DNA of 49,773 nt from Acidobacteriota bacterium (GTDB lineage: Bacteria > Acidobacteriota > Terriglobia > Bryobacterales > Bryobacteraceae), in the NCBI GenBank assembly GCA_025354525.1, contig JANXMS010000206.1:1-49773 (forward strand), written 5' to 3'. Below, piece by piece: positions 9,201-15,538 of the stretch. The translations under genes and the position numbers were made by a program. The first letter of the stretch is position 1, and the number at the start of each line of letters is the position of its first letter. The notes under the pieces are model-generated. The model made no database searches and was not told the origin of the DNA. It was given only the letters and a program-made list of their open reading frames with translations.

Positions 9201-9295
9201 TGGCGGAAGCCAGTGGGAGTCGAACCCACCGCGCCGCTTACGCGACGCACGCTGGTTTTGAAGACCAGGCCCAGCACCGGCCAAGATTGGCTTCC
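9201..9295 (-). tRNA. selC: tRNA-Sec (anticodon TCA)
   Basis: This 95-nt gene has all the marks of a bacterial selenocysteine tRNA. The acceptor stem has 8 bp (GGAAGCCA with TGGCTTCC). The anticodon stem CTGGT/ACCAG carries the loop CTTCAAA with anticodon TCA. The long variable arm is a 7-bp stem with a GTAA loop. The T arm is GTGGG/CCCAC with TTCGACT. Discriminator G and an encoded CCA follow. It reads UGA as selenocysteine, so the organism should carry selA, selB and selD elsewhere. It sits 4 nt downstream of the HD-domain gene on the same strand and may be processed from a shared transcript. Confidence 0.95.
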
Positions 9296-9904: not shown

Positions 9905-9980
9905 GGGCCTGTGGCGCAGTTGGGAGCGCGCTTCCATGGCATGGAAGAGGTCAAGGGTTCGAATCCCTTCAGGTCCACCA
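9905..9980 (+). tRNA. tRNA-Ala (anticodon GGC)
   Basis: A 76-nt tRNA with a paired 7-bp acceptor stem (GGGCCTG/CAGGTCC). The third pair is the G3-U70 wobble that is the alanine identity element. The anticodon stem is CTTCC/GGAAG around ATGGCAT, giving anticodon GGC. The T arm is AAGGG/CCCTT, the discriminator is A, and CCA is encoded. It borders the island-like stretch that ends in a degenerate copy at 13360-13434. Confidence 0.95.
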
Positions 9981-10130
9981 AAAATTTCTCCAGGTTACGG
10001 TGAGCGGCGAGTAGTTAAAGCAAGGCCCTCCGTAACCCTAGCGCAACCCAGATGCGCTCTCCTTTCGAGCAACCGCGAAGAAACAGCAGTGATACGATTG
10101 AGGAGAATCGATCGTCGGAGGTTGTGGCGA

Positions 10131-12998: not shown

Positions 12999-13308
12999 AC
13001 TTCGGGCGAAGATGCAACCGGAGGCCAGGGTCGAAGCCCGACGCCTCGCCGACCAGGATCTCAAGGAGATGCCCCTGCATGAGCTGCGTGCCGCCCGCCA
13101 CCTGACACAGCAACAACTCGCGCAGACCCTGGATATGACGCAGGCGGCGGTTTCACAACTGGAGCAACGCACGGATGTCTACCTCAGTACGCTTGGGAAC
13201 TTCGTTGAAGCGATGGGCGGACGATTGGAAATATATGCCGTATTTCCCGATGGAAAAGTGAAACTGGGTCTTGATCGGGAAGCCTCCAGGCCTTCGGTCG
13301 GGGACTAA
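12973..13308 (+). CDS. XRE-family HTH antitoxin (HigA-like)
   Basis: A 111-residue protein with a helix-turn-helix in the middle (LTQQQLAQTLDMTQAAVSQL, about residues 49-68) and a C-terminal part that ends LEIYAVFPDGKVKL. Antitoxins of this kind neutralise the HigB partner and repress the shared promoter. The ATG at 12973 lies inside the toxin gene's 3' end and is preceded by GAGGAGGAAG, a strong ribosome-binding site. Sequence before it in the same frame has no family resemblance. No other gene follows before the degenerate tRNA copy. Confidence 0.85.
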   Translation: MSKTTKFSELRAKMQPEARVEARRLADQDLKEMPLHELRAARHLTQQQLAQTLDMTQAAVSQLEQRTDVYLSTLGNFVEAMGGRLEIYAVFPDGKVKLGLDREASRPSVGD

Positions 13309-13359
13309 ATCTGAAAGGCGCCTGCATCCGCGAGCGGGCAAGCACGCCGAGCGCCAGTT

Positions 13360-13434
13360 CCCGGTGTGGCGCAGTTGGGAACGGCTTCCATGCCACGGAA
13401 GAGGTCAAGGGTTCGAATACCTGCGGGTCCACCA
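13360..13434 (+). pseudogene. Degenerate tRNA-Ala copy
   Basis: This segment matches the tRNA-Ala at 9905-9980 along most of its length: 15 identical bases at 13366-13380, 22 identical bases at 13397-13418, and the same GGTCCACCA end. The acceptor 5' side no longer pairs with the 3' side, the D arm has lost bases, the T stem has mismatches, and the anticodon position reads GCC instead of GGC. It should not be functional. It may mark the right boundary of an inserted element. Confidence 0.8.
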
Positions 13435-13517
13435 AATTTTAGAAACTGTCCCCCGTGATAATGAGCACATGCTCTCGGGCTCGTTGGTGGTGCTCACACT
13501 GAACTATACGGCCTGAA

Positions 13518-13818
13518 GAGTTATTGCCTCTTCGCTGTTTGGCGTGGGTAAGGTCGGGCGTGCGCAAGGGGGCATTCGGTTCTCGGAGGCGTCGGCGAGG
13601 ATAGAATCTCGAAGGGATGAGGAGCGTGCGAGTGAGTCGGGTTCGCCTCTTTGGGGTTTGAAGTTAGAAACGACAATATCGCCGTCGCGGCGGTGGGACC
13701 GCCATTTCCACGGCCGGTCTTGCGGGCCGAATGCTCCTGCCACTGTAGGCTACCCTCATCACTGGCGATCTTGCGCCGGCTCTTCTACCCACACCAAACA
13801 GCGAAGAACCGAGTTATT
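13518..13818. mobile_element. 285-bp MITE-like element with ISL3-type ends
   Basis: Terminal inverted repeats of 25 bp lie at 13526-13550 and 13786-13810 and differ at four positions. They are flanked by a perfect 8-bp direct repeat GAGTTATT (13518-13525 and 13811-13818), read as a target-site duplication. Ends beginning G[CG][CT]TCTTCGCTGTTT and 8-bp duplications fit the ISL3 family. The 235-bp interior is too short for a transposase and shows no remnant I recognise, so movement would need a transposase from elsewhere. Confidence 0.75.
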
Positions 13819-13908
13819 CAATCAACGCAGATAGCTATCGTGAGGCGGGTGCCTCCCTCACCGGCGCTTCGCTGTCTGAGGACCGATGTCAAAGGCTGTT
13901 CTCCAGAC

Positions 13909-14181
13909 TCATTCAGGGTCGGGGTAATCCGGTTTCTCAACTATGTATTGGGACCAGACCCCGGATCTGTCCTGCTTGCACCATGCTTCGTCGTCAAGCC
14001 CTGATGGTTTCATCCAGCGGATTTCGAAATGGGAGACCTGGAGGCCCCACCACTTGGACTCCGCTACGAATACCCCTGGACTGTAAGGCTAAACGTAAAT
14101 CTCTTGCTTCAATGTAGGGCCGACAATGACCGCCACCACGCCCGCAAATACAGCAACGAGGAAGAGATTGGTTCTATTCAC
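13909..14181 (-). CDS. Small membrane peptide gene with in-frame TAG, or broken 90-codon gene
   Basis: A GTG at 14181 with an excellent Shine-Dalgarno (GGGAGGAGG, 14188-14196, spacing 6) opens a frame for a 30-residue peptide: short polar start MNRTN, one hydrophobic helix (LFLVAVFAGVVAVIVG) and a charged tail ending at TAG (14089-14091). The same frame then continues for 59 protein-like codons (for example ESKWWGLQVSHFEIRW) to a TGA at 13909. Either the 30-residue peptide is the product, or a 90-residue single-helix protein has suffered a nonsense mutation. An 11-bp perfect inverted repeat links the Shine-Dalgarno/start to the TAG region. I recognise no family. Confidence 0.5.
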
Positions 14182-14190
14182 GTTTAGCCT
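14086..14190 (-). promoter_or_regulatory. Fold-back pairing that would hide a ribosome-binding site
   Basis: AGGCTAAACGT at 14086-14096 is the exact reverse complement of ACGTTTAGCCT at 14180-14190. In the minus-strand mRNA, the 5' arm covers the last AGG of the Shine-Dalgarno and the first two bases of the GTG start. The 3' arm covers the TAG stop. Pairing would block translation initiation until opened. Confidence 0.4.
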
Positions 14191-14274
14191 CCTCCCTTGC
14201 CGTGAGATTTTATCAGAAGTGAATGTGCTAGCCGAGCGACTAGGGCCGCAAATGCTTCAGCCACACCGTCCGGT

Positions 14275-14487
14275 TACCTGCGGAAGGAGAAGGCTCTGGA
14301 GGCGATACGGAAGGCCTACGAAGCGCAGCCGCACAATAACCGGCACATGCGCTTTGAAACTACTAACGCCCTTATGGCGCACTACGATTTTCGGCTGGCG
14401 TGCCATCAATCGCCGGCCATCACGCACGCCTCCGGGAATGAGTGTGCTGGCATGATTCTAGCCTGGATTTATCACCAACCACTTTGA
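14275..14487 (+). pseudogene. Gene fragment, C-terminal end
   Basis: One plus-strand frame reads about 70 codons of protein-like sequence (KALEAIRKAYEAQPHNNRH, later MAHYDFRLACHQSP) to a TGA at 14485. There is no plausible start in this frame; a neighbouring frame upstream (ILSEVNVLAERLG) may be its continuation across a frameshift. I cannot name the family. It fits the decayed character of 13.4-14.5 kb. Confidence 0.3.
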
Positions 14488-14512
14488 GCGCGCAGCGACT
14501 TCCGGATTCAGC

Positions 14513-15538
14513 TCAGGCCTCCCGCAACACCGCCAAGTACCGTTCCGCCACTCCCCCCAAATCATGCTCCCGCCGCACCCGTTCCCGAACCTCTAAGCCA
14601 TACTCCCGCACCCGACCCGGATGCTCCGCGCACTCCCGCATCGTCTCCCCCAACATTTCCTCCTCCCCCACCCCCGCAGGCACCTCCAACCCCTCCCCGT
14701 CGCTCGTCAACACCACCTTCCCGATCCCCATCATCCGTAACCCAATCCCCGACGTCTCCCCGCTCGCCGGATACCGCAAGTTCACCACCACATCCACCGC
14801 ACTCCCCACCAGCCAAAACTCCCGTTCCGTCATGTGCCCCACCCCCATCACCCCCTCCCACTTCATCGCCCGCGCCAAATCAGTCGACCCGATCTCCCCC
14901 GCCAACACCAGCGCCACATCACCCCTCTCCGCCCGCAGCCGTCGAAACGTCCGCACCACCGCCATCACCCGCTTCGACTCCCGCAAATACCCCATCACCG
15001 CAAATAAAGTTGTTGACGGTCTTATCCCCCGCTCCGCCCGCCAACGCTCCACCGCCCAACCCTCGGGAAGCACCGGCGCCTTGAAATAATGCGGAATTAT
15101 CCGCGCCTTCTCCCCCACGCGTCGCGCCGCCTCCGCGTTATGCACGATCACCGTCCGGGACCGCTCAATCAACCGCCGCAACATCCCATACCGGAAGTAC
15201 CGTGGATCCGTCGCCGACCCCGACCGCCCCCGCCAAAGTTCCCGCCCTAACTCGCGCGACCACTCCCCGTAGTTGTAAACAAACTCGTCCACATATTCCT
15301 CCTCTCCCATCGACCCCAAAAAGAAGTGGTGCAGCACCGCATCATGCAGCACCACCACCCCCGGCTCCCGCAGCGCCCGACCGTAAATTTCCCGATGCAG
15401 TTGATTGTTCCCGACGTGATACAAATTCACGTCACCCGACCGATTCACAACCGCCGGCAGCAACGGCAGCAGATCCGCCGCGTAGTCCGCCACCCCGGAT
15501 TTCGCCGGAGGCAGCGGCGAAAAGAACCCCACCGTCAT
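14513..15538 (-). CDS. Glycosyltransferase, GT4-like
   Basis: A 341-residue GT-B fold glycosyltransferase. The N terminus has the pattern FFSPLPPAKSGVADY typical of GT4 enzymes. The donor-binding half has GYLRESKR and then NLRYPASGETSG, the family E-x-x-G region. Such enzymes transfer a sugar from an activated donor to lipid, polysaccharide or other acceptors; the specificity is unknown. No membrane helix is seen. Its ATG overlaps the TGA of yggS (ATGA), so the two are translated together. The codon choice gives an extreme C-rich plus strand here. Confidence 0.88.
   Translation of the reverse strand: MTVGFFSPLPPAKSGVADYAADLLPLLPAVVNRSGDVNLYHVGNNQLHREIYGRALREPGVVVLHDAVLHHFFLGSMGEEEYVDEFVYNYGEWSRELGRELWRGRSGSATDPRYFRYGMLRRLIERSRTVIVHNAEAARRVGEKARIIPHYFKAPVLPEGWAVERWRAERGIRPSTTLFAVMGYLRESKRVMAVVRTFRRLRAERGDVALVLAGEIGSTDLARAMKWEGVMGVGHMTEREFWLVGSAVDVVVNLRYPASGETSGIGLRMMGIGKVVLTSDGEGLEVPAGVGEEEMLGETMRECAEHPGRVREYGLEVRERVRREHDLGGVAERYLAVLREA

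Follow-up and report, generated by a model that had tools for sequence, protein, structure and literature searches.

Messenger RNAs of type I toxin systems are known to form long-distance interactions between their 5′ and 3′ regions (PMC6733600). The locus described here lies in a 49,773-nucleotide stretch of DNA from an Acidobacteriota bacterium (contig JANXMS010000206.1), hereafter the window, and it resembles hok/sok and aapA/IsoA in two respects. Its product would be small, hydrophobic and confined to a single helix, and a segment far downstream in its mRNA is predicted to base-pair with the start site. We examined the peptide frame, the pairing and the surrounding DNA, and compared them with related genomes. 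Our leading explanation, held tentatively, is that the feature marks where an orphan gene begins, one that encodes a small membrane-anchored protein, is decaying in an island scar, has probably been cut by a TAG codon and folds back only incidentally.

A short hydrophobic frame and its start site

On the minus strand, a frame that opens with GTG at 14179-14181 and closes with TAG at 14089-14091 encodes 30 residues, MNRTNLFLVAVFAGVVAVIVGPTLKQEIYV. The best 19-residue Kyte-Doolittle mean of this peptide is 2.58, and its single hydrophobic segment is followed by a short polar tail. The Shine-Dalgarno sequence (GGGAGGAGG and flanking bases) forms a duplex with the anti-Shine-Dalgarno that has an energy of −12.1 kcal/mol, compared with −10.8 kcal/mol for the best value among the best starts of the 37 long ORFs in the window. 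A duplex this strong is found at only 6 of the 4127 ATG, GTG and TTG triplets of the window. These results agree with an earlier note on this DNA, which had described a single-helix frame of 30 residues from GTG to TAG, open onward, behind one of the strongest ribosome-binding sites in the window. Farther upstream, the block TTCTGATAAAATCT resembles a −10 box (TGA.TAAAAT) but has no recognizable −35 element, and a consensus scan detected no full sigma-70 site at the peptide gene.

Table 1. Positions of the features at the peptide locus and around it, in window coordinates.
Feature	Position	Strand	Remarks
Damaged tRNA-Ala-like sequence	13364-13436	+	90% identity to an intact tRNA-Ala (9910-9982, also given as 9905-9980)
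MITE-like repeat copy	13526-13812		22-bp terminal inverted repeats at 13529-13550 and 13786-13807; about 86 internal nucleotides deleted
Open tail after the TAG	13909-14088	−	59 codons and a TGA stop (13909-13911); frame continues from the peptide
Inverted repeat, arm 2	14086-14100	−	contains the TAG; missing in the relative G006
30-codon frame, GTG to TAG	14089-14181	−	lone hydrophobic segment at about residues 6-22
Inverted repeat, arm 1	14176-14190	−	spans part of the Shine-Dalgarno sequence, the start codon and the first bases of codon 2
Shine-Dalgarno sequence	14185-14195	−	6 nt 5′ of the GTG
Block resembling a −10 box	14203-14216	−	same in G006
Integrase (tyrosine recombinase) C-terminal remnant	14276-14347	+	gene body gone

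Homologues were sought by protein, DNA and degenerate-pattern searches of the genus, the order, the class, GTDB species contigs, IMG/VR and plasmids. The locus is present in two of the 19 genus genomes, namely that of the window and a Lake Pavin Acidobacteria MAG (G006; locus L028 on the 68,455-base contig C508, which agrees with JAPKZA010000275.1 in length and match position), which is its sole genuine relative. At the sensitivity used, no other homologue was detected in 257 order genomes, 399 genomes sampled from the class or a collection of 84,980 species. The remaining protein matches appear chance-like on inspection, and four IMG/VR matches to GGAGGCTAAACGTGAAT were rejected since they encode unrelated peptides. 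The gene is present as a single copy. Membership in a known toxin family, as expected of a hok-like gene, was not found in Pfam, NCBIfam or PHROGs; Pfam and NCBIfam gave no match to a toxin or any other family even at an E value of 10, and the one PHROGs match (E value of 0.1) falls within the tail beyond the TAG and is to a family of unknown function.

The alignment with G006 covers window positions 14147-14344 at 83% identity. All 14 bases from the Shine-Dalgarno sequence through the GTG are identical, and the Shine-Dalgarno region at its full extent is retained save for one deleted base. Codons 2 to 12 carry four base differences, all four at third positions and all silent in the minus-strand frame, whereas the 151 bases upstream contain 28 differing positions (18.5%) and two gaps. 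The low substitution rate of the start block relative to this flank has a P value of 0.048 on rate alone, and the probability that all four changes within codons 2 to 12 fall in third positions is about (1/3)^4 = 0.012. Because every one of these differences is silent, the start was presumably coding, and coding constraint on a gene that begins at GTG 14181 is the simplest reading of one relative and four changes. We ruled out a frame that runs through this block on the plus strand (14029-14187), as the G006 differences alter its residues (YSNEEE to YSDEKK).

It is rather unlikely that nothing is coded here and that both the frame and the repeat arose by chance in degraded intergenic DNA. Such an origin would suit a sequence with no family, few relatives and remnants on both sides, but it does not account for the identical block from Shine-Dalgarno sequence to start codon, for the exclusively silent changes or for the lower divergence of this block relative to its flank. 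Judged from the sequence comparison, the promoter-like box, the Shine-Dalgarno sequence, the GTG and the N-terminal hydrophobic helix appear to be real and to have once been under coding constraint.

Past codon 12 or 13, the G006 sequence gives way to the 3′-terminal part of a HEPN gene that adjoins a nucleotidyltransferase gene. This nucleotidyltransferase-HEPN pair occupies positions 614-1271 of L028, and the HEPN gene has lost its 3′ end where it is fused to antisense peptide-gene sequence. Its profile match extends to position 94 of 117, and that antisense sequence supplies the final residues of its frame. Because the sequence after codon 12 or 13 becomes this truncated HEPN gene, the alignment identifies G006 as a broken copy of the peptide gene.

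Pairing between the start and stop regions

The inverted repeat that joins the start site to the stop region is exact over 11 bp, with 83 nt separating the exact arms, as the earlier note had reported. Over 15 nt, 14 positions match and the lone mismatch becomes a G-U pair in RNA, which yields a 15-bp stem. The length of the exact repeat is unremarkable, since the window contains exact 11-bp repeats no more than 120 nt apart at five places; a match at 14 of 15 positions is found only here. Among 563 ORFs of 20 to 120 codons, a single one has 11 bp of pairing between its start and stop regions, while dinucleotide shuffles give 0.05. Chance is thus expected to produce this placement in about 1 of 20 such windows.

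The predicted stem dominates the structural ensemble. Its first 12 pairs have probabilities close to 1, the start codon is fully paired, and part of the Shine-Dalgarno sequence falls outside the stem. Total folding energy is ordinary (z scores of −1.6 for 121 nt and −0.6 for 341 nt), and most shuffled sequences fold about as well. No Rfam family matches the RNA of the peptide gene. Arm 1 is retained in G006, where the same bases are needed anyway for the start and the codons. Arm 2 was sought in G006 and is absent, and codon 31 likewise lies outside the G006 copy. For the conserved long-distance pairing that characterizes hok-like mRNAs, the comparison therefore gives a stem predicted in the window and an arm missing from the relative.

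These observations bear on whether the mRNA encodes a peptide controlled by fold-back, such that arm 2, at the stop, would keep the start codon, along with part of the Shine-Dalgarno sequence, inaccessible until loss of the 3′ end or the action of an antisense RNA frees them. The strength of the predicted stem, the rarity of the placement and the small, hydrophobic product are all consistent with this arrangement, for which the long-distance interactions of type I toxin mRNAs (PMC6733600) provide precedent. Nonetheless, we consider it improbable. The only relative lacks arm 2 and is itself broken, overall folding does not exceed that of most shuffles, the stem leaves part of the Shine-Dalgarno sequence exposed, and the gene is a single copy matching neither an Rfam family nor a toxin family. 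Moreover, a scan of 13300-14560 on both strands, restricted to sigma-70-type promoter sites and terminator consensus, revealed neither a promoter nor a terminator, including for an antisense RNA. Still more doubtful, and in our view very unlikely, is that the stop-codon region itself closes the start site of a membrane peptide in Acidobacteriota, which would make terminating and initiating ribosomes mutually exclusive. The earlier note had suggested a real peptide gene with a regulatory fold-back, set against a competing view of a 90-codon gene with a nonsense TAG. Its start is supported by the four silent changes out of four in G006, but with arm 2 absent there the fold-back has no comparative support; a regulatory role is unproven, with thermodynamics and placement as the evidence in its favor.

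The open tail and the surrounding island scar

Beyond the TAG the frame stays open, and the probability that its 59 tail codons would be free of stops is 0.076 according to shuffles. By codon score, the peptide frame ranks first of the six frames, over the peptide as well as over the tail. The tail scores −0.153 bits per codon, a value that lies between the distributions for coding (0.10 ± 0.20) and off-frame (−0.34 ± 0.24) sequence, and its G+C contents of 0.58, 0.44 and 0.64 at the three codon positions follow the pattern of a coding frame. Single-sequence AlphaFold2 modeling of the read-through frame predicts a helix (residues 3-23) followed by strands (25-34 and 37-45) that run past the TAG, with a pLDDT of 59 that is too low for reliance. 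Searches of the 257 order genomes, the 84,980-species collection, IMG/VR and plasmids yielded no homologue of the 59 tail codons. Taken together, the tail statistics favor, but do not establish, a longer frame that the TAG has cut.

It could be argued against decay that a 30-codon frame with such a strong start is a finished gene. Under this alternative, a complete single-helix membrane peptide of 30 residues is still made, and the start and stop regions of its gene pair only incidentally. Its Shine-Dalgarno sequence is the strongest among likely starts, its start and N terminus are conserved in G006, and a short polar tail closes its hydrophobic segment. However, the length of 30 residues finds no support in a sole relative that diverges past codon 12 or 13, coding-like statistics run on beyond the TAG, and the gene occurs in two of 19 genus genomes and nowhere else. 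We therefore regard a complete peptide as possible but unlikely. Separately, recoding of the TAG was dropped as an explanation. The window carries a selenocysteine tRNA gene (9201-9295, minus strand), but its anticodon, TCA, reads TGA and has no bearing on TAG.

The peptide gene is located at a point of repeated breakage, because it is accompanied by an integrase remnant, a damaged tRNA copy, an internally deleted MITE-like copy and the end of an inversion. The integrase remnant is 80% and 77% identical to two copies in G011 and 76% identical to one in G002. The intact G002 integrase gene matches PF00589, and full copies adjoin tRNA-like ends in both G002 and G011. Relative to G006 (L028, C508), window positions 14345-36939 (22.6 kb) are inverted, and one end of the inversion, at 14344, lies inside the integrase remnant. 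Neither ARAGORN nor Rfam calls a tRNA at the damaged tRNA-Ala-like sequence.

Related elements occur elsewhere. A stretch of G006 (C484, 490-627) that includes a tRNA-Ala-like sequence is 88% identical over window positions 13300-13436. The MITE-like element is about 370 bp long and has more than 20 matches in its own genome (including L096, L097, L098 and L099), with diverged copies in G002, G008, G012 and G006 (loci L100 and L101 in the relatives). Many of these matches are located at contig ends.

For the decaying gene that we favor, the original frame was most likely longer, at about 90 codons, and would have encoded the helix together with a small tryptophan-rich domain. The TAG at codon 31 would then be a lesion that cut this frame, and the inverted repeat might have arisen by chance or as a side effect of mutation. 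Perfect stems can form in a single step through template switching (PMC8794818). During replication, such a switch may have written a reversed copy of the start region into arm 2, TAG included, an origin that we propose because the CTA in GGCTAAAC, which precedes the start, reads TAG on reverse complementation. Whatever its origin, the stem is predicted to engage the start codon, along with some of the Shine-Dalgarno sequence, in base pairs and to lower translation of the remaining 30-codon frame.

Relationship to known systems

Despite the similarities noted at the outset, the locus differs from hok/sok and aapA/IsoA in that our analyses found no antisense signal, recognized no leader frame and identified neither a conserved pairing nor a sequence family. 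In addition, the downstream arm in those systems lies at a processed 3′ end, whereas here it lies at the stop codon. A conserved, functional fold-back would represent a regulatory arrangement between start and stop outside the lineages in which hok and aapA have been studied.

A second resemblance is to the orphan or degraded small membrane proteins found at the scars of integrase/tRNA islands. The locus shares with them a short hydrophobic N terminus, a narrow distribution, and an adjoining integrase remnant, tRNA fragment and MITE, along with a relative broken by rearrangement. It departs from them only in the placement of its inverted repeat, which is near the level expected by chance. As read here, the locus exemplifies the retention of a small orphan gene and its later disruption at an island scar prone to recombination.
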